Assembly: GCA_023664685.1 (NCBI GenBank)
Contig: JAMPFC010000019.1
Span: 1-40,367 of the forward strand
Reading direction: 5' to 3'
Length of the DNA: 40,367 nt
Source: Roseburia sp.
GTDB taxonomy: Bacteria > Bacillota > Clostridia > Lachnospirales > Lachnospiraceae
Numbering within the stretch: the first letter of the stretch is position 1; the number at the start of each line of letters is the position of its first letter. This document shows, in pieces, positions 12,128 to 35,860 of the stretch. The notes under the pieces are model-generated. The model did no database searches and had not been told where the DNA came from. It was given only the letters and a program-made list of their open reading frames with translations. The position numbers were made by a program, and so were the translations under genes.

Positions 12128-12128
12128 T

Positions 12129-12153
12129 ACAACATATTTTTTATTATGTTGTT
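12129..12153 (+). repeat. Left recombination-like site (IR-L)
   Basis: Arm ACAACATA (12129-12136), asymmetric core TTTTTTAT (12137-12144), arm TATGTTGT (12145-12152). This is the layout of loxP- or FRT-type crossover sites. It is the exact reverse complement of 12329-12353 over 25 bp and begins 1 nt after the recombinase stop codon. Confidence 0.75.
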
Positions 12154-12183
12154 CTAGACTTTTTGAGCAAACCTACATATATG

Positions 12184-12212
12184 ATTCTACTACAAATTGC
12201 TTATGATAACAA
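12184..12212 (-). promoter_or_regulatory. Promoter inside the invertible segment, facing left
   Basis: On the minus strand, TTGTTA (12207-12212), a 17-nt spacer, then TAGAAT (12184-12189). As sequenced it reads into the 3' end of the recombinase gene, away from the operon. Confidence 0.5.
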
Positions 12213-12316
12213 GATATTTTTTATGAGGGGAGTGCAGACTTTGTGTGACGAGTATGATTCTACTCCCTTATTTTTCATGGAATGTCATAAAATTTCCATA
12301 AAAATCACAGAAATTA

Positions 12317-12366
12317 GCATTTTGGCAAAACAACATAATAAAAAATATGTTGTTTTGCCAAAATGC
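12317..12366. repeat. Extended palindrome around the right site
   Basis: Perfect 21-bp arms at 12317-12337 and 12346-12366 flank the 8-nt core ATAAAAAA. The inner 8 bp of each arm belongs to the recombination-like site; the outer GCATTTTGGCAAA/TTTGCCAAAATGC exists only at this end. There is no U-tract. Inversion would split the outer arms, so this long hairpin can form only in the present orientation. Confidence 0.7.
12329..12353 (-). repeat. Right recombination-like site (IR-R)
   Basis: Arm ACAACATA (12330-12337), core ATAAAAAA (12338-12345), arm TATGTTGT (12346-12353). The core is the reverse complement of the left-site core, so the two sites are oppositely oriented and recombination between them would invert the DNA between. 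Confidence 0.75.
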
Positions 12367-12443
12367 GGCTTGGTGCAAATGTTAGGATTACGGTAGGCGA
12401 CCAGTCAAAAAGTGAGTTAAAACGTACAAAAAAAGTGTCATTT

Positions 12444-12471
12444 TTTACATTTTCCTGAAAAAGAATATAGA
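12444..12471 (+). promoter_or_regulatory. Candidate fixed promoter of the kinase/FHA operon
   Basis: TTTACA (12444-12449), a 16-nt spacer, TATAGA (12466-12471), about 65 nt before ATG 12543. It lies outside the invertible segment. If it is active, the switch would modulate rather than fully control the operon. Confidence 0.4.
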
Positions 12472-12542
12472 AGGATTATACTGAGGGCAAAAGAAAATGA
12501 CATCGAGAGAACAGCAGGAAAAATGAAAGGAATGAATATAGG

Positions 12543-15194
12543 ATGAAGAGGAGAATTTTTAGCGCTGTTTTGATCATCGCTTTTATTGTCATGTCATTGA
12601 GCGGATGTGGGGAGGACGAGAAAGAATCGTCTGAAAATCGCCCGGTTACGGGAAGTGCGGTGTCATCATCCGAGAAGCCAAAGGCATCCTCCGAACCGGA
12701 ATATCTGTATGATGAGTTTATCAATTCCGAGGCTCCGGATACGAGCGAACTCGGAAAAGACGAGGGGACAGATGAAGAGGCAAAAGAAGTAGAGAATGAT
12801 ATTAAAAAAGTCGAAAAGGAATTAAAAACCGTAAAAAAAGAGTATCGGAAGAACGGTGTAGTTGAAGAAGGAGATGTTCACTCGTATTTATGGGCGGCAG
12901 AGGAAAAACTCGGAGAGTTATATGACAATGGCGAAATTGCGGATTATAAAGAAGGAAAAAACTGTATCGAGGTTACACTGAACTCCGGCGTGACATATAT
13001 CATATCTCCGGAAATCAAGGATTGCGATGCCGGTGGGTCGGGTACGAAGATTCAGGTGGCGACGTATCAGCCCTGTCGTTCGTCCCAGATCAAGGATAAA
13101 GTCCCGGTTCGGTATTTGGATAAGTTGGATGAAGGTGCGGAACTGGTAGCAGATCAGTTGGAACAATACGAATTTTACCGTGATGGCAGTGATTCGGATA
13201 ATGATTTCGAGGATGAAGAGGTGTCACTGGAGTCCATTCTGCGTTTTCAAAATTATAATCTTATCATGTGGCATGGGCATGGCGGCTATACGGATACCCT
13301 TGGTTCATATATGGTGGTTGGTGTTGAGGTGACAAAAGCCAACAATAAAAAGTATATGAAGGATTTGATAGCGGGGCGGCTGATCTGTATGGAATCCGGG
13401 TATTATGCGATCACGAGTGGTTTTATCGAAAAATATATTTCGGATGGGGCGCTGAAAAACAGCATCATTTATCTGGGAGCGTGTTGTAGCGGCGAAAGTG
13501 ACCTTTTGCCCCAGTCGTTTTTGGATAAGGGAGCGATGGCGGTATATGCCAACAGCGGAACGATAAATACCCAATACAATCTGTCAATGATTTATTCCGT
13601 GGCACAAGGACTGACGAGACAGTCAGGGACTGGCACCTACTATACGACAGAAGAGGCATTGGAATATGCAAAGGAAAAGAATGGTTCATATGACACTCAT
13701 GGTACGGAGACTAAACTGTATACCAATCCGGATAATGGGGTTGTGGCACTGGACTGGTATCAGGATTATGTCAAATCCGAGCGGGATGTGGTCATGGTAC
13801 TGGATGCGTCCGGCAGTATGTCAGGGGAACCGCTTAGGGAGACAAAAGAAGCAGCATCCAAATTTGTCGATACAGTACTGGAACAGGAGGCACGCATTGC
13901 ACTTGTTTCTTATGGCAGTTCTGCCAGTCTGCGAAACAACTTTTCAACACAAAAAGAGGCGCTGAACGAGAATATCAATGCACTGGATGATGAAGGGGGA
14001 ACGAATACATACGAGGCATTGCAAATGGCGGACCAAAAACTAGAACGAAGTTCGGCAAAGAAGAAGATCATTCTTCTGATGACCGACGGATTGCCTAACG
14101 AGGGAGAGATGGTCAATGGGAGTTACGAGGAGGCTCTGGTCCAATACTGCGAAGAAATGAAAAATAAGGGATATTACATATATACACTTGGATTTTTCTC
14201 ACAACTTTACGACGAAGATAAGGCGGTTCCGCAACAGATGCTGCAGGACATGGCGAGTCCGGGATGCCATTATGAGGTTCAGGATGCAAGTGATCTGGTA
14301 TATTTCTTTGACGACATCGCACAGCAGATCGGAGGAGCAGGTTATGTGTATATACGGATTGCGTGTCCGGTCGATGTCACGGTGTCAAAAGGCGGAGAGA
14401 CATTGTCGTCCTCCGAAGAGGAAAAAAATACGCGAACCTCGTTTGGAAGTCTGATGTTTGAGGGAGAGTCCGATGAAATCAAAGTGCTGCGGCTCAAGAG
14501 CGATGCGGCATATGATGTGGATATTCAGGGAACTGGCGATGGTACGATGGATTATGCCATCAGTTATATGGATGAGAATGGCGAATATTCTGATAAGAGG
14601 ACATTTTCCAAGATTCCGATTACGCCTGAGACGAAGATTGATACGAATACGGATGGGAGCGACAGTACGATCTTAGAGTTAGACAGCGATGGCGACGGAG
14701 AGGTTGATAAGACATATGAGGCAGGAGCCAATGAAGAGGGAAAAGAAGTCGAGAAAAAGAGTAATTGGATTCTCTATGTGGCGATCGGAGGTGGAAGTGC
14801 GGCACTGATCGCGGTTATTATCATTATCATTGTAGTTTGTAGAAAAAAGAAGAAGAAAAGCAGTAGTGATGACAGTCTCAAGCAGCCGGTGCTGATGCCG
14901 GCATTGATATGTATTCAGGGCGAGTATCAGGGAGGTGTGTTTGAGGTGCCTGCCGCATCGACGATTTCAATCGGAAGAGAAAACACCTGCAATATCATAT
15001 TAAGCCATCCGAAGATCAGCAGGATGCACTGCATGATTTATGCAAGTCCGGGCGGTGGGTATCAGGTCATGGATTACTCTTCCAACGGTACTTATGTGAA
15101 CGATATGCAGATTCCGAAAGGCACACCGTATTATGCGATGTCTGGACAGCTCATAACGATCGGCAAATCCGGCAACGTATTTCAGCTTAGATAA
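12543..15194 (+). CDS. Lipoprotein with caspase-like, VWA and FHA domains
   Basis: This 883-residue protein begins with a lipoprotein signal (lipobox LSGC, about residues 19-22), then an acidic and coiled-coil-prone stretch (about 70-130). Residues about 165-400 resemble a clan CD (caspase/CHAT) peptidase: His244 in IMWHGHGG and Cys314-Cys315 in LGACCSG are spaced like the family His-Cys dyad. A von Willebrand A domain follows, with MIDAS residues Asp421-x-Ser423-x-Ser425 and Asp515 (MTDG). One helix at about 742-766 and a basic stop-transfer (RKKKKK) lead to a C-terminal FHA domain with Arg812, Ser826 and SSNGTY. Predicted layout: protease-like and VWA domains outside, FHA inside. It is the first gene of the operon. 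Confidence 0.8.
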   Translation: MKRRIFSAVLIIAFIVMSLSGCGEDEKESSENRPVTGSAVSSSEKPKASSEPEYLYDEFINSEAPDTSELGKDEGTDEEAKEVENDIKKVEKELKTVKKEYRKNGVVEEGDVHSYLWAAEEKLGELYDNGEIADYKEGKNCIEVTLNSGVTYIISPEIKDCDAGGSGTKIQVATYQPCRSSQIKDKVPVRYLDKLDEGAELVADQLEQYEFYRDGSDSDNDFEDEEVSLESILRFQNYNLIMWHGHGGYTDTLGSYMVVGVEVTKANNKKYMKDLIAGRLICMESGYYAITSGFIEKYISDGALKNSIIYLGACCSGESDLLPQSFLDKGAMAVYANSGTINTQYNLSMIYSVAQGLTRQSGTGTYYTTEEALEYAKEKNGSYDTHGTETKLYTNPDNGVVALDWYQDYVKSERDVVMVLDASGSMSGEPLRETKEAASKFVDTVLEQEARIALVSYGSSASLRNNFSTQKEALNENINALDDEGGTNTYEALQMADQKLERSSAKKKIILLMTDGLPNEGEMVNGSYEEALVQYCEEMKNKGYYIYTLGFFSQLYDEDKAVPQQMLQDMASPGCHYEVQDASDLVYFFDDIAQQIGGAGYVYIRIACPVDVTVSKGGETLSSSEEEKNTRTSFGSLMFEGESDEIKVLRLKSDAAYDVDIQGTGDGTMDYAISYMDENGEYSDKRTFSKIPITPETKIDTNTDGSDSTILELDSDGDGEVDKTYEAGANEEGKEVEKKSNWILYVAIGGGSAALIAVIIIIIVVCRKKKKKSSSDDSLKQPVLMPALICIQGEYQGGVFEVPAASTISIGRENTCNIILSHPKISRMHCMIYASPGGGYQVMDYSSNGTYVNDMQIPKGTPYYAMSGQLITIGKSGNVFQLR

Positions 15195-15208
15195 AAGGAG
15201 GATGAAGG

Positions 15209-15928
15209 ATGGTAGATCTTTCTTATGATACATTGACGAACCGGGGGGAGAGGAGCATCAACGAAGACTCGTTGGGCGTGACCGTACTTCCAAACTCTGT
15301 GGTGTTCGTGCTGTGTGATGGGTTGGGCGGTCATGGCAACGGAGATGTCGCATCTTCCCATGTGGTGTCTATGATGGACTTCTGCATCAGACAGGGGATG
15401 ACAGTCGAGGAAAGTATCGTTCGTTCACAGCAGACGCTGTTAGAGCGTCAAAAAGCAGAACATCAAGAAGATTCGATGAAGACGACGTTGACGTGTCTGG
15501 AGATTTCCGGCGATACCGCGCAGTTTGTTCATGTGGGGGACTCTAGGATTTACTGGTTTGACAGAGGCAGATACCGTGCTCGGAGCCAAGACCACAGTGT
15601 GCCACAGATGCTTGTCAACAGTGGAGCGATCCGTGAAAAGGATATTCGTCATCATGAGGACAGAAGCCGCCTTCTTCGGGTCATGGGGACTGAGTGGAAT
15701 ACACCGAAATATCAGTTTGGCGAGAAAATCGCTCTGACAGCGGGTACTTCATTTTTGCTTTGCAGCGATGGGTTCTGGGAACTGATTGATGAAAAGATGA
15801 TGGCAAAACATCTGAAAAGATCAGAGACGCCGCAAGTATGGCTGCAGAAGATGGAGCAGGAAATCATAAAAAATGGCAGAGGAACCAATATGGATAATTA
15901 TTCGGCAATCGCCGTTTACATAAGATAG
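15209..15928 (+). CDS. PP2C-family Ser/Thr phosphatase
   Basis: This 239-residue soluble PPM phosphatase shows every core motif: RGERSINEDS, the metal site CDGLGGHGNGD, HVGDSRIYW, LLCSDGFWE and the final MDNYSAIAV. It removes phosphate from Ser/Thr using two Mn/Mg ions, so it should reverse the kinases encoded downstream. The start at ATG 15209 has AAAAGGAGG at ideal spacing, 14 nt after the previous stop. It has no membrane segment or extra domain. The operon encodes a second PP2C at 19740; the two are diverged, so they may serve different substrates. Confidence 0.93.
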   Translation: MVDLSYDTLTNRGERSINEDSLGVTVLPNSVVFVLCDGLGGHGNGDVASSHVVSMMDFCIRQGMTVEESIVRSQQTLLERQKAEHQEDSMKTTLTCLEISGDTAQFVHVGDSRIYWFDRGRYRARSQDHSVPQMLVNSGAIREKDIRHHEDRSRLLRVMGTEWNTPKYQFGEKIALTAGTSFLLCSDGFWELIDEKMMAKHLKRSETPQVWLQKMEQEIIKNGRGTNMDNYSAIAVYIR

Positions 15929-15943
15929 AAAAGAGGATTCGCT

Positions 15944-16570
15944 ATGGTAACAAAATGTAAAAACGGACACTGGTTTGACCCCAATGTGACGCGAGAATGT
16001 CCGCACTGCAAAAGAAACGGTGAGAAATTGAGCCTGCAGATTGATAATGTAGAAGAAGATGACAAGACGGTATCCATCGCAGATCTCGATCTTTCGTTGG
16101 GAGAGCAGCTAGGGGAAATCATCGGCGATGCGGTGATGGGGATGCCCGATCTTGGAGAAATTGCGGGGAACGAAGATGATGACGACAAGACGATTTCCTT
16201 TGGCTTTTTTGGCGTGACGGGTGTGCAGCCGGTCACAGGGTGGCTGGTATGTCAAAATGGCGGGGAGAAAGGAAAAGACTACCGCCTCCGCTCCGGGCGC
16301 AACTTCGTGGGAAGAGGAAACGCTATGGATGTCTGCCTGATCGATGATAAAAGCATATCAAGGAACAGGCACTGTTCCATCTCTTATGACCCGAAAGGAA
16401 ATGCATTTTATCTGGCAGCAGAGGGAGGAAATACCGTATATCTGAACGGTGTCTTGATCGAGGAGGCAGAGAAGCTTGCGACAGACGATGAAATTATGAT
16501 TGGAGACACGAGACTGATCTTTGTAGAGTACTGTAAGGAGGGAAGGACATGGGACAAAGAGGAAGAGTAA
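15944..16570 (+). CDS. Zinc-ribbon FHA protein with acidic phospho-Thr-like motifs
   Basis: This 208-residue cytosolic protein begins with a zinc-ribbon-like segment (CKNGHWFD ... ECPHC, about residues 5-23). The linker contains two acidic threonine motifs, DDKTVSI (Thr42) and DDKTISF (Thr83). The FHA domain at about 95-200 has GRGNAMD, SISRNRH and GNTVYLNG, which are the residues that bind phosphothreonine. The architecture recalls GarA/OdhI, where a phosphorylated N-terminal Thr binds the protein's own FHA domain and switches it off. That mode is inference here. The gene overlaps the next one by 22 nt. A paralogue with the same layout is at 20661. Confidence 0.85.
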   Translation: MVTKCKNGHWFDPNVTRECPHCKRNGEKLSLQIDNVEEDDKTVSIADLDLSLGEQLGEIIGDAVMGMPDLGEIAGNEDDDDKTISFGFFGVTGVQPVTGWLVCQNGGEKGKDYRLRSGRNFVGRGNAMDVCLIDDKSISRNRHCSISYDPKGNAFYLAAEGGNTVYLNGVLIEEAEKLATDDEIMIGDTRLIFVEYCKEGRTWDKEEE

Positions 16571-18384
16571 GGTTCCGGTTTGGCATAGGGCTGGCTGCGT
16601 TAGTCGTTTTAGCGGTTCTAGCGGCGGCGCGCCCGGCAGAGGCAAAATATTATTCAAATTCCTATATCGTCGAACAAGCGAGGGGTGAGGCCCCAAATGT
16701 GAAGGCATACGTGACAGGAAAGGAGGTATCACCGAAAGCGGCTTTCAGCGGAAAACTTGGAAAAGAAATAGAACTCAGCCAGTCAGGGAAAACGACGGTA
16801 TTTAGTAAAACTAAGGAAGGCGTTCACTATATCGTACTGCTTGATAATTCGGGTTCAGTCAATAAAAAGCAGTTTGCTGAGGTAAAAAAGCAGTTGGCTG
16901 TCTTCCGGCAGAAAATGAAAAAAAAGGACAAGCTTTCTTTGTACGTGGTGGGAACAAAAAGCGCGTCCGGTAATCGAAAGAACATATTGAAAAAAACGGT
17001 AGTCGGAAATAAGAAAAAGGATATAAAAAGCGACAAGAAAAAGATAGCAAAGATCAAGCAGGACGGAGGGGCGAAGAGCAAGACGGTCTTGTACCGTTCC
17101 CTGAATGATGTGTTGGCAGAGCATGCAGCTCCAGAGATGCGGACGGTAGTTCTTCTGATTACGGACGGAGAAGATGATTCTGCCGGGAAAAACAATTCCA
17201 AGCAGAGTACGTTAAAAAACGTAACTTCTGCGACGATTCCTGTGTACTGCATCATGCTGAACAATCAGGCGAAAAAGCCAAACAAGTCGAAAATACGCAA
17301 TACCTTTGTCATCATGGAAGAGAAAAACAGCCGGGGATACTGTGCGGACTGCAGCGCCGACGGTTCTGTAAAAAAGGTCAAAAAGGCATTTACTGCGATT
17401 CGCAAGATCATCTATGAGAATACCTATGTGGTTAATCTGACCGCGCCGAACAATAAGCCGGTCGAGGGAATCGCCAAGTTGGAACTGAGTGCGGATAAAG
17501 GCGGCAAGGTCACGCCCGTACCGATTGCAGCAGGGGTTGATTACAGCGGCTCCATACCAGATACAGAGGCACCGGTCGTCGGCGAGATCACGAAAGCAAA
17601 GAGCAACGCCATTACCTTTACGATCACGGATGATTCGGGAGCTGTGTCCGGTGCGGACCAGACAGCAAATTATATTGTAAAGACAAAAGAAGAAGGGGAA
17701 GACGGAAAGGTCTGGAATATCAGCAATGTCAATTACAATAGTGTGGATCATACGGTGGTCCTGACGTTTGCAGAAGATTTGTATACGGGAGAGTATGTGC
17801 TGACATGCAGCAATATCCATGATGATACAAATGAAAAAAATATGATAAACCAATCTTATGAATTTACTTTTGAGGGGATAAGCGAGCAGGCAGAGCAGCG
17901 AAAGGAGTTCGCCCGCTCGTACTGGTGGATTGTGCTTGTTGTGATCGCTGTCATCGTCAGCATCATAATCATCCTAATGATAAAGAAAAAGCCGGGCAAG
18001 GTAATTGAAATCGATCCGAATGATCTGCTGAAAGCAGATTCAAAATTGATCAAGCTTACGATCACGGACCGCACCGGAGCGATCAAAGATGTTGAGTGGA
18101 ATGTCGAGGGCAGCCTTTTCATCGGGCGTTCCGAAATCTGTAATATTTATTTTGACGACGAGCGTTTGTCAAAACAGCATTTTGTCATTGAGGTAACAAA
18201 GATGGCGTGCTATATCGAGGATTTGGAATCGACGAATGGGACATTTGTCAATGGTGTGAAAATGACAAACCGGCGAATGCTTTTGGACGGAGATGTTATA
18301 ACAGCAGGCAGGGAAAAGTTCGTATTCCATGTGATTCAGGAAGAGTATTTCGATAAAGAAAAGCCCGAAAATGCAAATGTGTGA
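16549..18384 (+). CDS. VWA-TM-FHA membrane protein
   Basis: This 611-residue protein has a signal peptide (about 1-33, cleavage after AEA), a von Willebrand A domain at about 90-275 with MIDAS Asp99-x-Ser101-x-Ser103 (LLDNSGS) and LLITDGEDD, and a beta-rich Ig-like region (about 300-450). One helix at about 459-481 precedes a cytoplasmic FHA domain with Arg527 (FIGRSEICN), LSKQH and ESTNGTFVNG. The VWA domain should bind a metal-dependent ligand outside while the FHA domain reads phosphothreonine inside. It is Lys-rich, as many cell-wall-facing proteins are. It shares this VWA-TM-FHA plan with the first gene of the operon but lacks the caspase-like part. ATG 16549 follows AAGGAGGGAAGG within the previous gene. 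Confidence 0.85.
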   Translation: MGQRGRVRFRFGIGLAALVVLAVLAAARPAEAKYYSNSYIVEQARGEAPNVKAYVTGKEVSPKAAFSGKLGKEIELSQSGKTTVFSKTKEGVHYIVLLDNSGSVNKKQFAEVKKQLAVFRQKMKKKDKLSLYVVGTKSASGNRKNILKKTVVGNKKKDIKSDKKKIAKIKQDGGAKSKTVLYRSLNDVLAEHAAPEMRTVVLLITDGEDDSAGKNNSKQSTLKNVTSATIPVYCIMLNNQAKKPNKSKIRNTFVIMEEKNSRGYCADCSADGSVKKVKKAFTAIRKIIYENTYVVNLTAPNNKPVEGIAKLELSADKGGKVTPVPIAAGVDYSGSIPDTEAPVVGEITKAKSNAITFTITDDSGAVSGADQTANYIVKTKEEGEDGKVWNISNVNYNSVDHTVVLTFAEDLYTGEYVLTCSNIHDDTNEKNMINQSYEFTFEGISEQAEQRKEFARSYWWIVLVVIAVIVSIIIILMIKKKPGKVIEIDPNDLLKADSKLIKLTITDRTGAIKDVEWNVEGSLFIGRSEICNIYFDDERLSKQHFVIEVTKMACYIEDLESTNGTFVNGVKMTNRRMLLDGDVITAGREKFVFHVIQEEYFDKEKPENANV

Positions 18385-18399
18385 TAGAGGAAGATGTCT

Positions 18400-19743
18400 A
18401 TGAAATTTTGTCCGAATTGTTTTCAGTCAGGGTATGGAGGAGTTCGCTGTCATCTGTGCGGGTATGAAAATAAGCAGATGACAGAACAGCGGGCGCTGGC
18501 GCCGGGCATCTGGCTAAAGAACAGATATATGGTAGGCAGGGTGCTTGGCATCGGTGGGTTTGGAATCACCTATCTTGTTTTTGATTCGCAGACCAGACAG
18601 CGGTGGGCGATCAAGGAATATTTCCCGGCAGAGTGGGCGAGCCGCCTGCCGGGTTCCAATCAGATCGCAGTAAACAGCCAGTCGAAAGATGAGTACTATC
18701 TTCACGGAAAAGAAGTGTTTGCGGATGAGGCGAGGACGCTTTTGAAGTTCAAGGCAAACCCGGTGGTTGTGAATGTGATCGATTATTTTCAGGAAAATGG
18801 AACATCTTATCTGGTTATGGAATTTCTGGATGGAGCGACGTTAGCGCAGTATATGAAAGAGCGGAAAGCACCGCTGCCGATCGAGATTGCAAACCGGATG
18901 GTAAAAGAAATCGGTGATGCGCTTACGCTTATTCATGGCAGTATGATGCTTCACCGGGATGTGAGTCCGGATAATATCATGCTTACCAACCACAATGAAC
19001 TGAAATTGATCGATTTTGGAGCGACACGGGTGTATGCGTTAAATTCTCCGAAAAACATGTCCGTTTTGGTAAAACCGGGATTTGCACCGCTCGAGCAGTA
19101 TTCCAGTTCTGGTGTGCAGGGGCCTTGGACGGACGTGTATGCGTTGGCGGCGACGTATTATTACTTGGTATCTGGCAAAAAGCCGCCGACGGCACCGGAG
19201 CGTCTGACAGGTGCAGATTTGACGCCTTTGCATACATTGAATCCGCTTGTATCCAAAAGGATGGAGCAGGCAATCGGACATGCTTTGCAGACAGAGTGGA
19301 AAAAGCGCCCAGACAATGTGCAGCAGTTCATCCGGGAAATGGGATTAAGTCAGCTGAAGGTCACAAAGCAGGATATCCATTCGCTGCGGACAGTGCATGA
19401 AGGCGAATGGAAAAAATACAACCAGATCCAGAAAAAACCACAGCTCTTGCTGCAAAATGGCAGTGCTGTGACCCGGTATTCCTTTGCATCCAACCGTCTG
19501 CGGATCGGGCGGGGTGCGGACTCAGATATACGGATCGCCAACTCCCAGATCAGCAGTAACCACTGTGAAGTGATCTATGAGGCATCCGGATACAGTTTTA
19601 AGGTCATCAATTATTCGTCCAACCGCACATTTAGCAGCAAGGGGACACTCGGAAAAAATAATTTTGTATATTTGGGGCCGGGAGAATGGTTTTATCTGCA
19701 GACAAGCAGTGACAGATATATTTTTTATGTGGAGGTGCAGTGA
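18400..19743 (+). CDS. Zinc-ribbon Ser/Thr kinase with C-terminal FHA
   Basis: This 447-residue soluble Hanks-type kinase starts with a zinc ribbon (CPNC ... CHLCG). The kinase domain has P-loop GIGGFGITY, catalytic Lys72 (AIKEYF), His-Arg-Asp187 with Asn in SPDN, and Asp205-Phe-Gly. The activation end is FAPLEQY, the form shared by all kinases of this locus. A C-terminal FHA domain at about 350-447 shows Arg371 (RIGRGADSD), ISSNH and SSNRT, so the kinase can bind phosphothreonine partners or itself. ATG 18400 is chosen because GAGGAAG directly abuts the alternative ATG at 18394. Its stop overlaps the start of a PP2C gene by 4 nt, which pairs a kinase with a phosphatase. Confidence 0.92.
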   Translation: MKFCPNCFQSGYGGVRCHLCGYENKQMTEQRALAPGIWLKNRYMVGRVLGIGGFGITYLVFDSQTRQRWAIKEYFPAEWASRLPGSNQIAVNSQSKDEYYLHGKEVFADEARTLLKFKANPVVVNVIDYFQENGTSYLVMEFLDGATLAQYMKERKAPLPIEIANRMVKEIGDALTLIHGSMMLHRDVSPDNIMLTNHNELKLIDFGATRVYALNSPKNMSVLVKPGFAPLEQYSSSGVQGPWTDVYALAATYYYLVSGKKPPTAPERLTGADLTPLHTLNPLVSKRMEQAIGHALQTEWKKRPDNVQQFIREMGLSQLKVTKQDIHSLRTVHEGEWKKYNQIQKKPQLLLQNGSAVTRYSFASNRLRIGRGADSDIRIANSQISSNHCEVIYEASGYSFKVINYSSNRTFSSKGTLGKNNFVYLGPGEWFYLQTSSDRYIFYVEVQ

Positions 19744-20624
19744 TGTTTGGAAAGAGAAAAAGAGAGCAGGGATTGGCAGAACCAAGACAGCCTATGCAGA
19801 TACCGGTCTCTCATTCTATACATAGAAAAGTGCCGGAACTTCATACGCTTTGCTATACCGAGACGGGAAACCGCCAGTATCAGCAGGATGCAGTCTATGT
19901 GTCAAACAGCAAGATTCTGGCGGCGAACAAGAAGACGAGAGTGCTGGGGGTTGTCTGTGACGGTATGGGAGGAATGGCAGATGGGGGCAAGGCGAGCCAG
20001 ACAGCGATCCAGATGATGGTTCAGGGCTTCAAACAGATTGAAAAATGCTCCGAAGTCGATATTCCGGCATTTTTCCGAAGCGGTATCGTATCGATCGATA
20101 AGACGATCCATGATTTTCCGAAAGAGAATGGGAAAGGCTCTGGGACGACGATGGTAACGGTCATCGCAGAAGACAATAAGCTTTATTGGGCATCGGTAGG
20201 CGACAGCAGGATTTATATCATCCGCGGAGGCAATATGAAGCAGGTCACAAGAGACCACAACTACTGGCTGCGCCTTCAGGAAATGGTGGCGGCAGGGCAG
20301 ATGACGCGGGAAGAGGCGATGGCAAAGCGGCAGAAAGAAGCACTGATCAGCTTTCTTGGAATCGGAAATGTGAGCTTGATGGACATCAACATACAGCCAT
20401 TTGAGATGCAGCCCGGCGATACCGTGATGCTGTGCAGTGACGGAATTACGAAAACGCTCCCCGACGAGCAGATCAAGAAAATCATTACTGCCGACATCGT
20501 CTCGATGGAGGAAAAGGCAAAGACGTTAGTTCGGGCAGCAGTAACCAATAACACTCATTCCCAAGATAATACATCGGTTGCAATCTTGCAATACAGGGAA
20601 GTGGAAATAAAAAAATCAAAATAA
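19740..20624 (+). CDS. PP2C-family Ser/Thr phosphatase (second copy)
   Basis: This 294-residue PPM phosphatase contains GNRQYQQDAVY, CDGMGGMADGGKAS, ASVGDSRIYII, MLCSDGITKTL and SQDNTSVAIL. Metal-binding Asp residues are all present. Compared with the other PP2C of the locus it has a basic N-terminal extension of about 40 residues (FGKRKREQG) and an insertion at RDHNYWLRLQEMVAAGQM. In the first family motif Arg/Asn-Glu-Asp is QQD. The ATGA overlap with the kinase-FHA gene implies translational coupling, so that kinase or its substrates are the likely targets. Confidence 0.92.
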   Translation: MMFGKRKREQGLAEPRQPMQIPVSHSIHRKVPELHTLCYTETGNRQYQQDAVYVSNSKILAANKKTRVLGVVCDGMGGMADGGKASQTAIQMMVQGFKQIEKCSEVDIPAFFRSGIVSIDKTIHDFPKENGKGSGTTMVTVIAEDNKLYWASVGDSRIYIIRGGNMKQVTRDHNYWLRLQEMVAAGQMTREEAMAKRQKEALISFLGIGNVSLMDINIQPFEMQPGDTVMLCSDGITKTLPDEQIKKIITADIVSMEEKAKTLVRAAVTNNTHSQDNTSVAILQYREVEIKKSK

Positions 20625-20660
20625 GTTACGAGTGCAAACGCACGAAGAAAGGAGTCTGTT

Positions 20661-21491
20661 ATGAATTTAAGCAGATGTGCAAATGGACATTTTTTTGACA
20701 AGGAGAAATATACGACCTGCCCGCATTGTGCAGGAGGGGCGTCCGCAGATGACAGCCTGACTACAGTATTTACAGAAGACGTAAATCCGGCAGGGATGCC
20801 GGCAGCACCGCTTATGCCCGATGCGTTTTCGACGCCGGCGAAAGAGGGAACCGTACCGGTGGATTTTGCGATTGAAGACACGCTGCCGACAGCGCCGCTT
20901 GCAGAGTCGCATCCTACGATGCCATTGTCAGATGTACATTCTTTTGATACGCCGACCGTGCCGCTTAGTGAGGCAGAGGGAATTGTGGCATCGACAGCTT
21001 CCATGTCGATGGATTCGGATGATGACGACCATACGGTGGCATTTTTTGATGATGTATTTTCAAATGTGGCACCGGCATCATCTGCATCGGCAGTTGTAAA
21101 AAAAGAAAATACGGTATCTTCACCGTGCGTCGGCTGGCTGATCGCGATCGGCGGTGTTCATATCGGTCAGGATTTCCGATTGAAAGTTGGAAAGAATTTT
21201 ATCGGAAGAGATGAGACGATGGATGTGGCGATGACAGGTGATAAGAGCGTGTCAAGAAACCGCCATGCTATCGTTGTGTACGAACCAAAACAGCATTTGT
21301 ACCTGATTCAGCCCGGGGAGTCTAGCGCTTTAGTATACTGCAATGACGAAGTGGTGCTAGGACCGGTCAAACTCAAACCGTATGACATCATAACCATTGG
21401 CGAAGTAAACCTTCTGTTCCTGCCTCTCTGTGGCGAGCAGTTTAACTGGAGTGCGCTGTTTGAAGAGATGTCAAAAAAGACTAACGAATGA
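20661..21491 (+). CDS. Zinc-ribbon FHA protein with Thr-Pro-rich linker
   Basis: This 276-residue paralogue of the 15944 product starts with zinc ribbon CANGHFFD ... TCPHC. The linker (about 30-150) repeats short Thr motifs: TAPL, TMPL, TVPL and an acidic DDHTVAFF (Thr125). The C-terminal FHA domain (about 160-270) keeps GRDETMD and SVSRNRH, but where the conserved Asn-Gly/Thr turn is expected it reads PGESSALVY, so the Asn contact appears lost. The linker threonines look like kinase targets, which is inference. RBS AAAGGAG lies before ATG 20661, 36 nt after the phosphatase stop. Confidence 0.85.
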   Translation: MNLSRCANGHFFDKEKYTTCPHCAGGASADDSLTTVFTEDVNPAGMPAAPLMPDAFSTPAKEGTVPVDFAIEDTLPTAPLAESHPTMPLSDVHSFDTPTVPLSEAEGIVASTASMSMDSDDDDHTVAFFDDVFSNVAPASSASAVVKKENTVSSPCVGWLIAIGGVHIGQDFRLKVGKNFIGRDETMDVAMTGDKSVSRNRHAIVVYEPKQHLYLIQPGESSALVYCNDEVVLGPVKLKPYDIITIGEVNLLFLPLCGEQFNWSALFEEMSKKTNE

Positions 21492-21507
21492 GAGGACGGA
21501 GAACACG

Positions 21508-22482
21508 ATGAATCGTTCAGCAAAGGGGATGCGGGTCGTCTGCGGCTTGCTGCTTCTTGTTAATCTGGCGCTGTTTTTCCTGCCAGTCACGCAAATTGAG
21601 AGAAAGAATGCAGCGGGAAAAAGTGAACTGAACTACTCGCAGTTTGACTATGTGAGAGAGATGACGAAAGGCGAACTTCCGCATGATGAATATTTAGAAG
21701 TAGATGCATTTGAGGGAATCTGCTATGTGGTAACGATTGTCTTTATGGTAATTCCGTTTGTGTGTTCAGTTGCCGGAGGGATCTGCGGACTTGCTGGTGG
21801 TCCGAGACAGCTTGTGACCGGAATCGGCTCGCTCTTGGTTTTGGGATGCTATCTGGGGCAGTATTTTATGCTAGAGCAGATGTGGCCGGATGTCACGGCG
21901 GATCTGAGCTGTCAGAGAGGATTCGGCAGCATGCTGACGCTCGCTGTCTCCGGTTGTGCCACTTTGTTTGGCATTCTTAGTTTTGTTTTTATGCCGAGGC
22001 GAAAAAAGCCAAACGAGAATAAAATCCCACAGGTGCAGGAGATACGGACCGAGCAGAACCGTGCCATGTATCATATGGTGGATGCTGTCAGCGGCAGCGG
22101 GGAAGAGAATCTCAATATGAATACTGCGGCATCAGCGGCATTGCCGCCGTATGTGCCGCAGGGAGAACCAAGAGGAGTACTGGTAGGACTGACCGGTATG
22201 TATGCCGGAGCAGAAATCGCTTTCACGGACCGGATGATGATTCGGCTTGGGCGCCTGCCAGACAATGATCTGGTCTTTGAAAATGAACAGCACATCAGCC
22301 GCAGACATTGCGAGATCACATGGTATGCGGTAGAAAAGATATTCCGGATTAAGGATTTTTCAAGCAGCGGCAGTTATATCAATGGTTCCGAGGACTGCAT
22401 TCCACAGAATATCGATACGCCGTTGCCGCCGGGAACGGTACTTGATATCGGGGATGCGAACAATCGATTTCGTCTTGAGTAA
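21508..22482 (+). CDS. Polytopic membrane protein with C-terminal FHA
   Basis: This 324-residue protein has four predicted helices (about 6-26, 70-96, 105-125 and 142-165) and then a cytoplasmic linker. The FHA domain at about 228-324 has GRLPDNDLV and HISRRHC; the usual SSNGT is SSSGSYING, so Asn is replaced by Ser. An extracellular loop of about 40 residues lies between helices 1 and 2. I choose ATG 21508 (MNRSAKG, followed by a typical first helix) because the in-frame start at 21430 lies inside the previous gene. It probably anchors a phosphothreonine-reading module to the membrane. Similar plans recur at 35861 and 37020. Confidence 0.8.
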   Translation: MNRSAKGMRVVCGLLLLVNLALFFLPVTQIERKNAAGKSELNYSQFDYVREMTKGELPHDEYLEVDAFEGICYVVTIVFMVIPFVCSVAGGICGLAGGPRQLVTGIGSLLVLGCYLGQYFMLEQMWPDVTADLSCQRGFGSMLTLAVSGCATLFGILSFVFMPRRKKPNENKIPQVQEIRTEQNRAMYHMVDAVSGSGEENLNMNTAASAALPPYVPQGEPRGVLVGLTGMYAGAEIAFTDRMMIRLGRLPDNDLVFENEQHISRRHCEITWYAVEKIFRIKDFSSSGSYINGSEDCIPQNIDTPLPPGTVLDIGDANNRFRLE

Positions 22483-22500
22483 AAGGGAAAGAGGTACAGT

Positions 22501-24855
22501 ATGGCAAGTGAATTGTGCATGAGATGCTTTCATGTAAAAGGAAAATATGAAGTATGTCCGATGTGTGGATATGCGGAGGGTACGCCGCCGGAGCAGCCGC
22601 ACTATCTGATGCCGGGAACGATTTTAGGCAATCATTTTCTGGTGGGGACGGCAATCGGAGCGGGTGGGTTCGGAATTACCTATCGCTGCTTTGATATTAC
22701 ACTGGGTGTCGCCGTGGCGGTCAAAGAATTTTATCCGGCAGGGCTTGTAAACCGTGCGCCGGGTGAGACGACGGTCGGGCTGCTGTCTGGGGACAAAAAA
22801 GAGCAGTATCAGGCGCAGTTGGGCAGATTTTTGATGGAGGCGCAGAGCATCGCCCAGTTCGGGAAAGCCAAAGACATCGTAAATGTATATGATTTCTTTG
22901 AGGAAAATAATACTGCTTATATCATTATGGAGTACATCGATGGTGTACTTATGAAAGATTATCTGGAAAAACAAGGACGTCTGGATGTCGATGTGGCACT
23001 GAGCGTCATCTCACCGGTCGTCGATGCTGTGAAGAAAATTCACGCCAAAGGGATCATACACAGGGACATCAGCCCGGACAATATTTTTATATCGGGCGAG
23101 GATTCGATCAAAGTATTTGATTTTGGTGCAGCGCAGCTGAATGACAGCTCTGCCGGAATGGCAGCAGAGAAAGTGATCAAGGTTGGGTACTCGGCGCCGG
23201 AGCAGTATAGAGATCACAGCAAGCAGGGATATTTTACAGATATTTATTCCGTGGGTGCGATCTTGTATCAAATGCTTACCGGCATCAAGCCTGTCGAGTC
23301 TACAGAGCGGGAGTTCAAGGATGATTTGAAATCGCCGGCAGAACTTGGGGTTCGGATTGAGCCGAATATCGACCGCGCTGTAATGGAGGCGATGGCAGTC
23401 AAGCCGGAATTGCGTTTTCAGAGTATCCAACAGTTTGAGGACGCCCTGAAAAGCAAGCGCATTGCCGAATATCCAAAAGTAAAACTAAAAAAGAGAAAAC
23501 GCAGACGAGCGTGGATCATCAGTTCGGCGGCGGCACTGGTGCTTGGAGTCGGCGTATTGATCGGACTGATGAATACGGTGTTCAAACCGAAAAATGTTAT
23601 TTTTGATTCCTCGCTGAAAGAAGATACGGTCACGGTGTGGGTGGATAGCAAGGAGGAGAAAGAAAAGCTGAGCCGCATCGTGGAATACAATTTTTATCCG
23701 AGCGAAAAGACTACGACAGATAGCGAAGAATTGAAAAAGATGCGCAAGGACAACCAGAAAGTAAAGGTGGAGATCAAGGATGTAACAGAAGATGATTCCA
23801 AGGCAACGATGGATAAAAAACTCGCAGAGGCAAAGGAAAATGGAACGATGCCGGATATGTTTTTATCGGATCATGTCAGCCATCTGGAGGACTATTCTCT
23901 GGTATCACTGAGGGAAAATGTCTATGCGGCAGTCGAACCGGAAAAATATCTGTATTTTGATACGTATCCAACGTACTCCGGCGGCATGAAAGAGATACCG
24001 ACGGGGATTGACAGCATGTTTGTGTACAGCGTCAAGATGAAAGAGAACAAGAAAAATGAACGCAAAGACAGTAGCTTTTTTGCCGGTACGGAGCCTTCTG
24101 TGGAACTGCAGGCGGTACTCGGACAGAATACGGTACAAGAACGTCAGGAATTTACGAAAGTAGCGGATGGTTTCAGCACGAAAGCGAGTATCCTATACAA
24201 TCCAAGCTGTTTTGCAGAGGGCAGTGGGGAGTTGATGCCGGACACGGACATGGTAAATAATTTATATAATTTTGCTTACCGCATGAGGATACCGATAAAT
24301 GAAAAATCGAAAAAAGATAAGGATGGAAGCAGCGTCGACGAAAACAGCGTAATTGCCGGAGTGGATTACCGCGGGACGATAAATGAACTTGTGAGCAAGG
24401 GAAAAAGCGGGGATAACAAGAGTATCAATCAGGTAGATGATTATTCGGTACAAGTAGCAACACAGAATGGCAAAATGCTTGTCAGCTACGAAGATAAGTT
24501 TGCGATTTCCGGGGAGTCATCAAGAAACAGACAGATTGCCTGTATGCGCCTTTTATGGATCTGCCTGCTCGAGTCTTCCCAGACAGAGAATTATTCTTCG
24601 ACTGGAAAGACACCATTTCCAATCTTGAAAAGTGCGTTTGACGAGTTTTTTAAATATAATGACAAGTTTGAGTGTTTTCAAGATATGGTGGGAACATCAG
24701 CCCTGCTCATTGGCAGTGGACAGGCAGAAATCCTGTCATTTGATGAGGGGCTGTGTAACCTGAGCAGTGGTGACTTGACACAACTGAATCAGGTTCATAA
24801 ATATTGCGTCGAGTATGCAGCACAGAAAAAGAAACAGTCGGAACAGACGGAATGA
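22501..24855 (+). CDS. Transmembrane Ser/Thr kinase with solute-binding-like ectodomain
   Basis: This 784-residue protein begins with zinc ribbon CMRC ... CPMCG. The kinase domain has GAGGFGITY, Lys75 (VAVKEFY), HRD with Asp189 and SPDN, and Asp207-Phe-Gly. A basic stretch (KKRKRRR) and one helix at about 338-360 follow. The ectodomain of about 420 residues resembles an ABC-transporter solute-binding protein: MDKKLAEAKENG-TMPDMFLSDHV, GGMKEIPTGIDSMFVY, and a C-terminal SALLIGSGQAEIL. Such a fold normally binds sugars, peptides or similar solutes, so this kinase may sense a small extracellular ligand. Kinases with this ectodomain are unusual compared with PASTA kinases. All catalytic residues are present. 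Confidence 0.87.
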   Translation: MASELCMRCFHVKGKYEVCPMCGYAEGTPPEQPHYLMPGTILGNHFLVGTAIGAGGFGITYRCFDITLGVAVAVKEFYPAGLVNRAPGETTVGLLSGDKKEQYQAQLGRFLMEAQSIAQFGKAKDIVNVYDFFEENNTAYIIMEYIDGVLMKDYLEKQGRLDVDVALSVISPVVDAVKKIHAKGIIHRDISPDNIFISGEDSIKVFDFGAAQLNDSSAGMAAEKVIKVGYSAPEQYRDHSKQGYFTDIYSVGAILYQMLTGIKPVESTEREFKDDLKSPAELGVRIEPNIDRAVMEAMAVKPELRFQSIQQFEDALKSKRIAEYPKVKLKKRKRRRAWIISSAAALVLGVGVLIGLMNTVFKPKNVIFDSSLKEDTVTVWVDSKEEKEKLSRIVEYNFYPSEKTTTDSEELKKMRKDNQKVKVEIKDVTEDDSKATMDKKLAEAKENGTMPDMFLSDHVSHLEDYSLVSLRENVYAAVEPEKYLYFDTYPTYSGGMKEIPTGIDSMFVYSVKMKENKKNERKDSSFFAGTEPSVELQAVLGQNTVQERQEFTKVADGFSTKASILYNPSCFAEGSGELMPDTDMVNNLYNFAYRMRIPINEKSKKDKDGSSVDENSVIAGVDYRGTINELVSKGKSGDNKSINQVDDYSVQVATQNGKMLVSYEDKFAISGESSRNRQIACMRLLWICLLESSQTENYSSTGKTPFPILKSAFDEFFKYNDKFECFQDMVGTSALLIGSGQAEILSFDEGLCNLSSGDLTQLNQVHKYCVEYAAQKKKQSEQTE

Positions 24856-24878
24856 TGAAAGAGAAAGGATGAGTGGAG

Positions 24879-26597
24879 ATGAAGGTAAAAAATCATAAGT
24901 GGATCGTGTTTTTATTGATTTGCTCCCTGTTTGCAGGAATGTGGAGTGGAGGCGTGGTAAAGGGAGAGGGGGAAGAAGGCACAACGACGGTGTCGGAGAC
25001 GACAGAAGAGGGAAGGCCGGAATCAGTTAGAATCATAAAAGAGGTAACTATCAAGGGAGTGGAGCCGCCGGAAAGTATAAGCGATGCACCGAATACTCAA
25101 GAAATACAGGTAGAGACTGTTGCGGTGGAGACTGGAACTGTGGAGACTCCTTCTGTGGAGACAGTAGAGGTGGAGAAAGCGATAATAATAAAATCTACAT
25201 GGGAACCAAATGAAGATAAATCCGTGTATCGGTTATCTGTTAGTTTGGAGGCAGAGGCTGGGTATAAATTTAAAGTTCAAGGCAATAACTTAGATTTAGA
25301 TATCGTAATCAAGGATGTGAGAGGTAAAGAGATAGACTTGAAAGACAAGAATTTGGATATTCGTTTAGAAAACGGGAGGGCGGTGATTACTTGTGATTTT
25401 CAGGTTGAGCCACCAGAGCCTATAAAAATCGATGAAGTACCAATAAGTAATATTGTGATTCCGAAAGGTGGACAGTCGCTTCCAGAAGAAACACCTACTA
25501 TAGATACTAAGGGGATTGAGATATTGAAAGAGCACATAGAATGGAAGGATGAAGATGGGAAATCTATTACAGATAAACAGGCTAAATATGATACCACTTA
25601 CAAACTGTGGATTCCATTACAGGCAGAAAAAGGCTATGAGTTTCGGGACTGGCTAAAAATAACAGTAAATGATATTTTAGATAAGAATATTGCTTGGGAA
25701 CGAGATGGAAACAACAAGAACATTATAATTGTAAAAATCAAATTTACAACAGACAAGGATCTGTCATCAACCTCACCACTAGAAACACCGACTGTTACGC
25801 CGCCCGATTCGCCAAATGTTGAACCCTCGGCATCACAGGCACCAGTACCAATACTCCAACCGACCATTCCTCCAACTACCTACACCATCACTTTAGATGT
25901 CAATGGCGGAACGTTGTCTCAGAAGAGCATTACATTCACAGCAGAAACGATGAGCGGGGTTAAGCTTCCGACACCTACAAAAAAAGATTCCCTATTTCTC
26001 GGTTGGTATCAGGGAAAGAAAAGGGTGTCTCAAATTATGGAGGCAAAAGACATTTCGCTAAAAGCGCAGTGGGCGAGTGCCAAGATAACGATGAAATACT
26101 GGTCCACGATTAGTTGTGTCAAGAAGTTGAAATTAAGTTCGGATGTCAAGTTGGAAAAGATAGAATTTGACAAAAAATACAAAAAGTATTTCAAGGTTGA
26201 TCAAAAGAAGTTGACGATCAAGGGGAAGAAATATGTTAAAAAGGCGACAGTGAATTTGACGATTGACGGGAAGAAATTAGAGAAAGGTGTTACGGTTAAG
26301 ATGGAATTACCGCAACCGGAGATTAAGATTGTAAGTAAGGGAAGACCGAAAGCTTATGCTATAGGAATATACCGGACATTTAAGCTTTCTTATACATATG
26401 CTCCGGGAGCGACAAAAGCTGTTGCAGAATATTCAAAAAAGAAGAAAAAAGGCTATAAAAAATGCGGAAAAGCGTTGAATCAGTTAAAAGGTGGAAGTGC
26501 TAGCATAAGAAAGGGAACAACAATCTATATGAGAGTAACAATTTATTATGGGAAAAATGCGTCCAAGAAATCAGCGTTTGTTACCTTAAAAGGATAA
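24879..26597 (+). CDS. Secreted InlB-repeat-type surface protein
   Basis: This 572-residue protein has a signal peptide (about 1-30), a Thr/Glu/Val-rich low-complexity stretch (VETGTVETPSVETVEVE), and two beta-rich modules with matching EAGYKF and EKGYEF turns. A Pro/Thr linker (about 290-325) leads to an InlB B-repeat-like module (YTITLDVNGGTLS ... FLGWYQGKK ... LKAQW), then a Lys-rich C-terminal region. No LPxTG motif or membrane anchor is seen. Sitting between two receptor kinases of the same operon, it could be a ligand or wall component they monitor; that is inference. Base composition is visibly more AT-rich than its neighbours, which suggests separate acquisition. GTGGAG and AAAGGA precede ATG 24879. 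Confidence 0.75.
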   Translation: MKVKNHKWIVFLLICSLFAGMWSGGVVKGEGEEGTTTVSETTEEGRPESVRIIKEVTIKGVEPPESISDAPNTQEIQVETVAVETGTVETPSVETVEVEKAIIIKSTWEPNEDKSVYRLSVSLEAEAGYKFKVQGNNLDLDIVIKDVRGKEIDLKDKNLDIRLENGRAVITCDFQVEPPEPIKIDEVPISNIVIPKGGQSLPEETPTIDTKGIEILKEHIEWKDEDGKSITDKQAKYDTTYKLWIPLQAEKGYEFRDWLKITVNDILDKNIAWERDGNNKNIIIVKIKFTTDKDLSSTSPLETPTVTPPDSPNVEPSASQAPVPILQPTIPPTTYTITLDVNGGTLSQKSITFTAETMSGVKLPTPTKKDSLFLGWYQGKKRVSQIMEAKDISLKAQWASAKITMKYWSTISCVKKLKLSSDVKLEKIEFDKKYKKYFKVDQKKLTIKGKKYVKKATVNLTIDGKKLEKGVTVKMELPQPEIKIVSKGRPKAYAIGIYRTFKLSYTYAPGATKAVAEYSKKKKKGYKKCGKALNQLKGGSASIRKGTTIYMRVTIYYGKNASKKSAFVTLKG

Positions 26598-26616
26598 GAA
26601 CGAAAGGAGTTCAGCG

Positions 26617-28695
26617 ATGAAATTATGCATGGGTTGTATGAATCAGATGGAAGACCATATGTCGGTATGTCCTTATTGTGGGTTTAATGAGGCAGAGCTG
26701 CGGCAGGAATCTTATTATCTGGCGCCGGGAACGGTAGTAGGTGGTAAGTATATCGTCGGAAAGGCGATGAGTTACGGAGGATATACCGTTACTTACTTAG
26801 GAATGGATGCAGAGAAAAATCGCAAGGTCATGATAAAGGAGTATTTGCCGAGTGATTTTTCGACGCGTTCCGAAGGAGATAGCGAGGTCACGATTTACTC
26901 AGGAGATGCACAAGAGCAGTTTGAGCAGGGACTGACGACATTTCTCAACGAGGCAAATCGAATCCAACAGCTGCATAATCCAAGGGGAATTATGCAAGTG
27001 TATGATTGTGTGGCAGAAAATGATACTGGTTATGTGATTTCCGAATATTTGGAAGGAAAGACACTCAAACAGATCATGGCAGAGGGAAAGCGTTTCTCAC
27101 CACAGGAGGCAAAAGATTTTATCTGCCAAATTCTCGAGGGCTTGCGTCAGGTTCATCCGCTGGATATTATTCACTGTGATATTGCACCGGAGACAATCTT
27201 TGTGACCAATATGGGAGAAATCAAGCTTCTGGATTTTGGTGCGACCAGATATGTCACGACAGCAAATTCCAAGAGCCTTGCCATCATTTTAAAGCAGGGC
27301 TATGCACCCGAAGAGCAGTACCGCAGTCAGGGGGTGCGCGGACCGTGGACGGACGTATATGCGCTAGGGGCAGTCATGTACCATATGATCACGGGCGTGG
27401 TTCCGCTGGAATCGGTTGACCGTGCCTTGGTCGATGAACTGAAAGAACCGTCGAAGTTGGGAATACAGATTCCGCCCAACATGGAAAATGCACTCATGAA
27501 TGCCTTGAATGTATATCAGGCAGAGCGTACGCCGTCGGCGGAAGTGTTCTATCAGGAACTGAACAGTCCGCAAGTACAGCGCATCCAAGTAAAAAAGAAA
27601 AAATACGAGACCGGAAAATTCCCGACTTGGGCAAAAGTTCTTGTGGCAGGGCTGCTTTGCGTCGTTGTGGCAGGAGGAGTAATCATCGTGATGAGTTCGG
27701 GGGAACACAAAAATGTAGGTGCTGATTCTAAGGTGGCAAAGGCAGAATCGGTTCTCGGAATGAGCGAAACAGATGCAAATGAGAAATTGAAACAAAACGA
27801 AATTACGTTTGAGGCAAATGAAGTTATTTTTGACAAGTCGGTCAAAGATGGCAGTGAAATCTTGACGCAGGAACCGGCTGCCGGGGAAGCAGTTTCGGAT
27901 GGGATGATCAAGGGAACGGTTCTCAGCAGTGAAAAATGCATGTATGATGAACTGCTTGACCAAAAGGATAATGTCTATTCGCTGGCAGAAAATTTTGGGA
28001 TTGATAAATCGCAGCTGCAACCGTCAGAAGAAAAGGATGCCTCGGATAAAAGTAAAAAATTTCAAAACCTTTATGGGGTTATCTTGAACGACGGAACAAA
28101 ATTGAACCTGAAAGACTTGGAAAAGAGGGAAAAAGACAACGCCATATTGGAGTTATCGGATGTTCAGACAGTTACATATTATACCAGTCCGTATTTGTAT
28201 AAAAAGAAACTTGGCAATTATGTCGGGCAGAATATTTCCCAAGTGTCATTCACCAGTTACACTGCGGGTAAGAACGGAGCGAGAAAAAAAGCAGGAACAG
28301 GGACACCGACATGCGACAGCAGGTACTATTCCTTTGACAAAGAAAAAGGAGATATCGTAAAGCAGAATGTAAAGCCGGGCAAGACTTACGATGCCTCAAA
28401 AATGGAGGGCGCACTTTTTGTCACAGTAAAAGAGCGGTTATATCGTCAGGAAAGTGAGACAGCGGATGCGCTGATCAAACGATTGAAGGACAGGGGATTT
28501 AATGTAAAGGAAAACGGTAGTGGTTCGGAAGTTGATTCGGTCACAGTAAGCGGTGAAGGCGGCGCAAAATATTTTACAAAAAGCGATAAGGTTACGGTTA
28601 CAAGGAAAGAGAAAGTCGTTTCATCAGAAAGCCGAAGTAGTAATAATTCATCAAATACTACAAAGAAAACTCAGCCGAATAACCCCCTCAACTAA
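26617..28695 (+). CDS. Transmembrane kinase-like protein, probable pseudokinase, PASTA-like ectodomain
   Basis: This 692-residue protein has zinc ribbon CMGC ... CPYCG and a kinase-like domain that departs from the consensus. The glycine loop is AMSYGGYTVTY (first Gly replaced), the HRD is His-Cys-Asp188, and the metal-binding Asn is Thr193 (DIAPETIF instead of DIAPDNIF). Lys74 and Asp232-codon Asp206-Phe-Gly are kept. Loss of the Asn suggests weak or no phosphotransfer. One helix at about 341-361 precedes an ectodomain beginning with a PASTA-like module (AESVLGMSETDANEKLKQNE ... TQEPAAGEAVSDG) and further repeats. That ectodomain is nearly identical to that of the next kinase, including 491 bp of identical DNA. 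It may form mixed dimers with the active kinase. Confidence 0.82.
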   Translation: MKLCMGCMNQMEDHMSVCPYCGFNEAELRQESYYLAPGTVVGGKYIVGKAMSYGGYTVTYLGMDAEKNRKVMIKEYLPSDFSTRSEGDSEVTIYSGDAQEQFEQGLTTFLNEANRIQQLHNPRGIMQVYDCVAENDTGYVISEYLEGKTLKQIMAEGKRFSPQEAKDFICQILEGLRQVHPLDIIHCDIAPETIFVTNMGEIKLLDFGATRYVTTANSKSLAIILKQGYAPEEQYRSQGVRGPWTDVYALGAVMYHMITGVVPLESVDRALVDELKEPSKLGIQIPPNMENALMNALNVYQAERTPSAEVFYQELNSPQVQRIQVKKKKYETGKFPTWAKVLVAGLLCVVVAGGVIIVMSSGEHKNVGADSKVAKAESVLGMSETDANEKLKQNEITFEANEVIFDKSVKDGSEILTQEPAAGEAVSDGMIKGTVLSSEKCMYDELLDQKDNVYSLAENFGIDKSQLQPSEEKDASDKSKKFQNLYGVILNDGTKLNLKDLEKREKDNAILELSDVQTVTYYTSPYLYKKKLGNYVGQNISQVSFTSYTAGKNGARKKAGTGTPTCDSRYYSFDKEKGDIVKQNVKPGKTYDASKMEGALFVTVKERLYRQESETADALIKRLKDRGFNVKENGSGSEVDSVTVSGEGGAKYFTKSDKVTVTRKEKVVSSESRSSNNSSNTTKKTQPNNPLN
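27835..28325 (+). repeat. Gene-conversion tract, copy 1 (ectodomain of 26617 gene)
   Basis: Reading base by base, I find no difference between 27835-28325 and 29966-30456 (offset 2131). The similarity continues with scattered changes to about 28590. The kinase halves of the two genes are far more diverged, so the tract was probably copied recently rather than being kept by selection alone. Confidence 0.8.
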
Positions 28696-28711
28696 GAAAA
28701 GGAGGCACACC

Positions 28712-30823: not shown

Positions 30824-30840
30824 TAAGAGAGGTTGCATTT

Positions 30841-32229: not shown

Positions 32230-32231
32230 AG

Positions 32232-34755: not shown

Positions 34756-34759
34756 CCGG

Positions 34760-35841: not shown

Positions 35842-35860
35842 AAGATAGGAGGAACAGTAG

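Follow-up and report, generated by a model that had tools for sequence, protein, structure and literature searches.

In the window, by which we mean the entire 40,367-nt contig of a Roseburia sp. assembly (3.0 Mb, 131 contigs), a tyrosine recombinase gene, a short segment bounded by inverted sites and a 19-gene operon very probably make up a self-contained DNA-inversion switch, in which the recombinase flips a promoter segment and so sets the operon ON or OFF. The anatomy of the locus (Table 1) and the fact that recombinase, site pair and promoter are conserved across the family can be read directly from our comparisons and, with its inverted repeats, predicted inner promoter and adjacent intact recombinase, the segment would be classed as an inverton. 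Recombinase would bind the palindromic arms of both inverted sites, and strand exchange in their asymmetric centre would invert the 175-nt segment together with its sigma-A-type promoter. As sequenced, presumably the OFF state, this promoter would face the 3' end of the recombinase gene and, once flipped, it would drive the operon of Ser/Thr kinase, PP2C and FHA genes from a position some 240 nt before ATG 12543. That the neighbouring recombinase works on this site pair, that the strain contains the two orientations and that flipping sets operon expression is our inference.

Table 1. Coordinates of the proposed switch and its surroundings in the window.
Feature	Position	Strand	Basis or remark
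Tyrosine recombinase, 288 aa	11261..12127	+	SAM-like core-binding and catalytic domains; Pfam, PDB relatives, residues
Recombination site 1, recombinase side	12129..12153	.	Exact reverse complement of site 2; place conserved in relatives
Invertible segment, 175 nt, presumably OFF as sequenced	12154..12328	.	Family comparison
Promoter TTGTTA-17-TAGAAT, facing recombinase	12184..12212	-	Promoter scan and family comparison
Palindrome around site 2, perfect arms of 21 bp	12317..12366	.	RNA folding energy -31 kcal/mol, z -7.8
Recombination site 2, operon side	12329..12353	.	Exact reverse complement of site 1
Leader, site 2 to first operon gene, 189 nt	12354..12542	+	Weak fixed-promoter candidate inside
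Candidate fixed promoter CTGAAA-16-TATACT	12455..12482	+	Score 8.3 versus shuffle 95% level of 9.1
Operon, 19 co-directional genes	12543..38270	+	ORFs, gaps of at most 36 nt, Pfam; 18/19 in same order in G027
Protein with weak PPC-domain match	38385..39581	+	25.5 bits, under the cut-off of 25.9

The recombinase matches PF00589 (5e-24) and PF02899 (3.1e-06) and keeps R146, H233, R236, H259 and Y268, the complete R-H-R-H-Y set that had been recognized in a sequence-only reading of this DNA, as well as K168 and K170. The stretches bearing its catalytic residues align with those of Xer recombinases of known structure in the PDB and, judged by these alignments, the protein is Xer-like. Its scores against the NCBIfam equivalogs for XerA, XerD and XerC (137.4, 101.5 and 97.0 bits) are far under the respective cut-offs (220, 329.6 and 335.15), so that it is not classed as a XerC, XerD or XerA chromosome-resolution recombinase. 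In Cre-loxP, as in the window, an arm-core-arm site is paired with a tyrosine recombinase, whereas the window recombinase is Xer-like and both the site sequence and the proposed promoter-switch role differ; the description 'loxP-like' given in the sequence-only reading is thus apt for the site architecture and not beyond it. The intact gene directly adjoins the segment, an adjacency conserved in its relatives. Just upstream, a short ORF (10909-11184, minus strand) matches an Mrr-type restriction nuclease and is likely a remnant. No relative of the recombinase was confirmed in the viral contigs searched.

Both sites are 25 nt long and are exact inverted copies of each other 175 nt apart, with a single base separating the recombinase stop (ORF end at 12127) from site 1, in full agreement with the earlier reading. 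With at most one mismatch allowed, they form the sole neighbouring site pair in the 3.0-Mb assembly, two single sites being on other contigs. A search of the same assembly for a flipped copy of the segment found none, one orientation being present.

We then compared the locus across a genus set of 39 genomes and a family set of 397 genomes from 334 genera. Relatives of the recombinase occur in 14 of the genus genomes (E 1e-40; own genome included, and counting a 33% paralogue family) and in 36 of the family genomes (E 1e-80; own included). Merging 145 rows left 92 places, 68 with at least 45% identity, of which 55 have at least 500 nt downstream. A palindromic inverted site pair (pattern ACATAAT-N4-ATTATGT, at most four mismatches to the pattern and two within the pair) lies downstream in 43 of these 55, and in one of the 13 relatives with under 500 nt downstream, so that 44 loci in all share the layout. 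The same test gave no pair far downstream (0/44), upstream (0/50) or in shuffles (0/1100). That the palindromes are terminators or regulator-binding sites, and the recombinase the unrelated integrase of a mobile element, is therefore hardly credible: the folding energy of the palindrome around site 2, the one minus-strand terminator-like site flagged by a scan and the nuclease fragment upstream of the recombinase would suit it, but against it stand the core-matched inverted pairs in 43/55 relatives and in none of the controls, and the cassette DNA, searched against phage records, found no match there.

Twelve of the 55 relatives lack the site pair. Six of them (L096, L099, L097, L147, L112 and L103) have another inverted repeat of 13-21 nt, which may represent diverged sites, and the other six have none of at least 13 nt; the pair was also missing at L034, just under the identity cut at 44.9%, and at the single relative from the genome-contig search (Candidatus Gemmiger). 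In L096, L097 and L099, all from genome G067, the repeat is of a different, ACATTC type with roughly 470 nt between copies, perhaps reflecting a shifted site specificity.

Site-to-site distance among the relatives is 178-365 nt (median 250). Common to them is the consensus ACATAAT-N4-ATTATGT, with four variable central bases and arms that often extend to about 10 nt; the arm-core-arm form proposed from sequence alone is thereby borne out, and its division into 8-8-8 is not. The four central bases are reverse-complementary within the pair in all 39 non-redundant loci, a match partly built in because pairs were chosen with at most two mismatches in 18 nt. Among these loci there are 26 distinct cores, none of them palindromic, as compared with 2.4 expected by chance. 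Each of the window sites is one base off the family pattern, the AATATGT variant being present also in L008 on a related recombinase branch. This departure and the single orientation in the assembly could be taken as signs of a relic, with recombinase or sites defunct and the promoter frozen facing left. We give this little likelihood, however, since the recombinase ORF is intact with all catalytic residues kept, the sites are exact copies including the shared departure, an identity that decay would break, and L008 has the same variant.

The promoter TTGTTA-17-TAGAAT was located on the minus strand at 12212-12184, pointing left as first read, and in silico inversion moved it to 12270-12298 on the plus strand, facing ATG 12543, again as anticipated. 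On an approximate sigma-A matrix, applied in both directions, its score of 8.9 against a shuffle 95% level of 9.7 is not above chance when taken alone, and its weight therefore comes from its conserved place in the relatives. Of the two directions, the one towards the recombinase has the better promoter in 35 of the 39 non-redundant loci (40/44 of all), and the mean best score over the 39 is 9.98 for left-facing matches, as against 7.11 for right-facing ones and 7.09 for shuffles (sd of mean 0.22). Moreover, the best left-facing -10 box ends 23-50 nt from site 1 in 36/39 loci, whereas the best right-facing matches are scattered from 9 to 301 nt from site 2. The exceptions are L008, L091, L092 and L130, of which L091 and L130 also carry a left-facing promoter at the usual place.

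Past site 2, the first ORF of at least 80 aa shares the strand of the recombinase in 39 of 42 loci and is on the other strand in L119, L092 and L106, while two of the 44 loci had none. With promoters facing the recombinase and ORFs running away from it, most assemblies, the window included, show what would be the OFF state for the downstream genes. The view taken in the sequence-only reading that the sequenced orientation is OFF fits this family pattern, and its proposal of a promoter-inversion switch gains support from the 44 loci of the same layout, the conserved promoter place and the strand of the downstream ORFs, as well as from sites ahead of kinase operons homologous to this one in G003 and G027, two further species of the genus. 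By eye, the N-termini at the other loci suggest a cargo of, among others, NusG-like regulators, proteins resembling signal peptidases, large surface-type proteins and additional recombinases.

In G028, four segments of 81-100% similarity lie in a single orientation relative to their recombinase, and opposite orientations were not found among similar segments of G028, G032, G034 and G031. Since mixed orientations should break assemblies at the sites, we counted contig ends near the recombinase: they fall within 400 nt of it downstream in 13/68 relatives and upstream in 1/68 (p 0.002), or, without G028, G067 and G032, which contribute 7 of the 13, in 6 versus 1 of 50 (p 0.125). This contig-edge bias downstream of the recombinase lends weak support to mixed orientations.

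Two smaller elements were noted within the segments. In 15 of 38 family segments, compared to 1.7 expected from shuffles, ATGTA occurs at most 22 nt past the -10 box of the promoter that faces left; the window copy is at 12174-12178 on the minus strand, and the element, which resembles part of a site arm, may be regulatory. In the window, TATGATTCTACT is found twice in the segment (12180-12191 and 12253-12264, 73 nt apart), its first copy including the promoter -10 box.

The palindrome around site 2 scores 20 as sequenced and 8 after in silico flipping, because one of its arms lies mostly within the invertible segment and the long form thus exists only in the sequenced orientation. On the operon strand its hairpin has no U-tract, and it could hinder read-through from the recombinase. 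A state-dependent hairpin was dropped as a general family feature, the trend among relatives being weak: site 2 is the more palindromic of the two sites in 24 of the 39 loci and the less so in 12, with 3 ties (p 0.08).

Behind the switch, the operon encodes, by Pfam, seven protein kinases of the Hanks type (three with PASTA), two PP2C phosphatases and nine FHA-domain proteins, one of the latter also being a kinase and two also VWA proteins, besides a LytTR response regulator and a Listeria-Bacteroides-repeat protein. Its VWA-FHA first gene is rare, with relatives in 2/39 genus genomes (E 1e-40) and 3/397 family genomes (E 1e-60), own genome included in both. PADLOC, run on 10 proteins, matched the four tested kinases to kinase-containing families and one PP2C to a candidate family; we did not take this naming as membership of a defence system.

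Homologous operons lie behind such sites in G003 and G027. G003 has a complete cassette ahead of a kinase/FHA/PP2C operon with 35-73% identity and the window's gene order (PP2C, FHA, VWA-FHA, kinase-FHA, PP2C, FHA, FHA, kinase, PASTA-kinase), with the promoter facing left (12.6 versus 8.4), that is, OFF. Its PP2C ORF opens 28 nt past the site, an ATG at about 51 nt, preceded by GGAGG, being the likelier start. G027 has 18 of the 19 window operon genes, in order. We rejected its classification as a kinase operon without a cassette when the formal site search revealed a perfect site at positions 37-54 of the contig, at the contig edge and 45 nt ahead of the first operon ATG; it is the only one in that genome at up to one mismatch. 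The first gene behind the site differs in the window, G003 and G027, that of G027 being a homologue of the window gene with the weak PPC-domain match.

These two species bear also on the fixed promoter candidate in the window's leader, which might drive the operon in either state, so that the segment would invert and matter little. The leader is among the longest of the loci, with room for such a promoter, and it holds the CTGAAA-16-TATACT candidate (Table 1). Yet the score of this candidate is below the shuffle 95% level, and the first genes 28-51 nt (G003) and 45 nt (G027) past the site leave little room for a fixed promoter there, and we therefore regard it as rather unlikely that the flip has little consequence.

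Under the inversion switch that we favour, G027 may represent the opposite state. The 36 nt inside its site best match, among all flanks compared, the promoter-side flank of G021 (26/36, local score 19, with a maximum of 17 in 200 shuffles), followed by another promoter-side flank (14) and then a far-side one (11). Thus, the promoter side adjoins the recombinase in G021 but the operon in G027, which is suggestive of an ON-like arrangement as far as a between-species comparison over 36 nt can indicate. Comparison of orientation among related genomes, put forward in the sequence-only reading as a check, hence yields a promoter that mostly faces the recombinase, and opposite promoter sides facing the operons of G003 and G027. 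A search of G027 for a recombinase of this branch found none (best match 33%, on a different contig), and its operon contig ends at the site.

In the midpoint-rooted tree, the recombinases of the window and of G003 fall on separate branches, and a tree constrained to unite them is 28.7 log units worse (AU p 0.025, 30-row tree), in a test of a question posed after the first tree was seen. This points to kinase operons having acquired recombinase cassettes more than once. It is possible, and we put it forward tentatively, that the whole Ser/Thr phospho-network (seven kinases, two phosphatases and nine FHA readers) is phase-variable as a unit, that cassettes were recruited to such networks repeatedly and that the layout may bias itself to OFF. 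In such a self-bias, antisense transcription from the OFF promoter would run into the recombinase gene, whose expression it could reduce; in the ON state, this antisense brake would be lifted and the segment would flip back. A switch on a multi-kinase operon would divide a clonal population into cells that have a large protein-phosphorylation system and cells that lack it. Our survey of relatives makes the OFF bias testable, and the consensus of the sites, the position of the promoter and the default orientation that it yields offer a means to find and score such switches without reads.

To our knowledge, the recombinase of the C. difficile CmrRST switch is not encoded beside it, whereas that of the window is adjacent. 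CmrRST is otherwise a fitting parallel as a phase-variable signal transduction system in a clostridium (PMC6837544), as the window operon probably would be too, and differs in that it comprises a histidine kinase and response regulators, rather than Ser/Thr kinases. In C. difficile too, the invertible site Cdi6 is upstream of a signal-transduction operon, and signalling and chemotaxis are described as the functions met with most often near clostridial invertible sites (PMC5903667). The cwpV switch of C. difficile is likewise an inversion just upstream of a gene, mostly OFF and with a state-dependent hairpin (PMC2784873). In cwpV, however, the segment does not include the promoter, and the OFF transcript is proposed to contain a terminator (PMC2784873), while in the window the promoter is inside and the hairpin is without a U-tract on the operon strand. 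A switch of the cwpV type was discarded, given the conserved promoter inside the segment and a scan of 12100-12600 with no terminator-like site on the plus strand. As 96% of cwpV in genomic DNA from strain 630 is in the OFF orientation (PMC2784873), an OFF bias in our case would be unsurprising.

Closest among the systems compared is inverton group 139, in which 32 of 33 members are from Clostridia, which is linked to tyrosine invertase group 35 and for which reads show shifts between orientations (PMC11892184). As in the window, a short segment has a tyrosine recombinase nearby, the example from Clostridium sp. D5 having 26-bp repeats with 205 nt between them, by its printed coordinates (PMC11892184). 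As judged from its description in the text, this pairing of inverton and invertase groups is where the window switch likely belongs, and the mechanism is of a known kind, that of invertons in clostridia whose recombinase lies next to them. Discussion of phase variation in gut bacteria, in PMC11892184 as elsewhere, mostly concerns surface structures; the main text of that paper nowhere has the word 'kinase', in contrast to the kinase cargo of the window. Among the matches listed for open-licence literature, no paper deals with invertible promoters and Ser/Thr kinases. The multi-kinase cargo and its repeated link to such sites seem the unusual and interesting part of this system.

Recombinase copies are numerous in some of the genomes surveyed, namely G028, G067 and G032 (L117-L120, L096, L099 and L153), G028 alone having 14 matches, nine at no less than 49% identity, and several copies in the three genomes are followed by a second recombinase gene with 33-38% identity to the query. 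Lastly, at L002 (G000:C53:6617-6901) a 33% recombinase paralogue is followed by a mosaic intergenic repeat of 285 nt with 28-nt inverted ends, which, whole or in pieces, has 57 matches in the genome, itself included.
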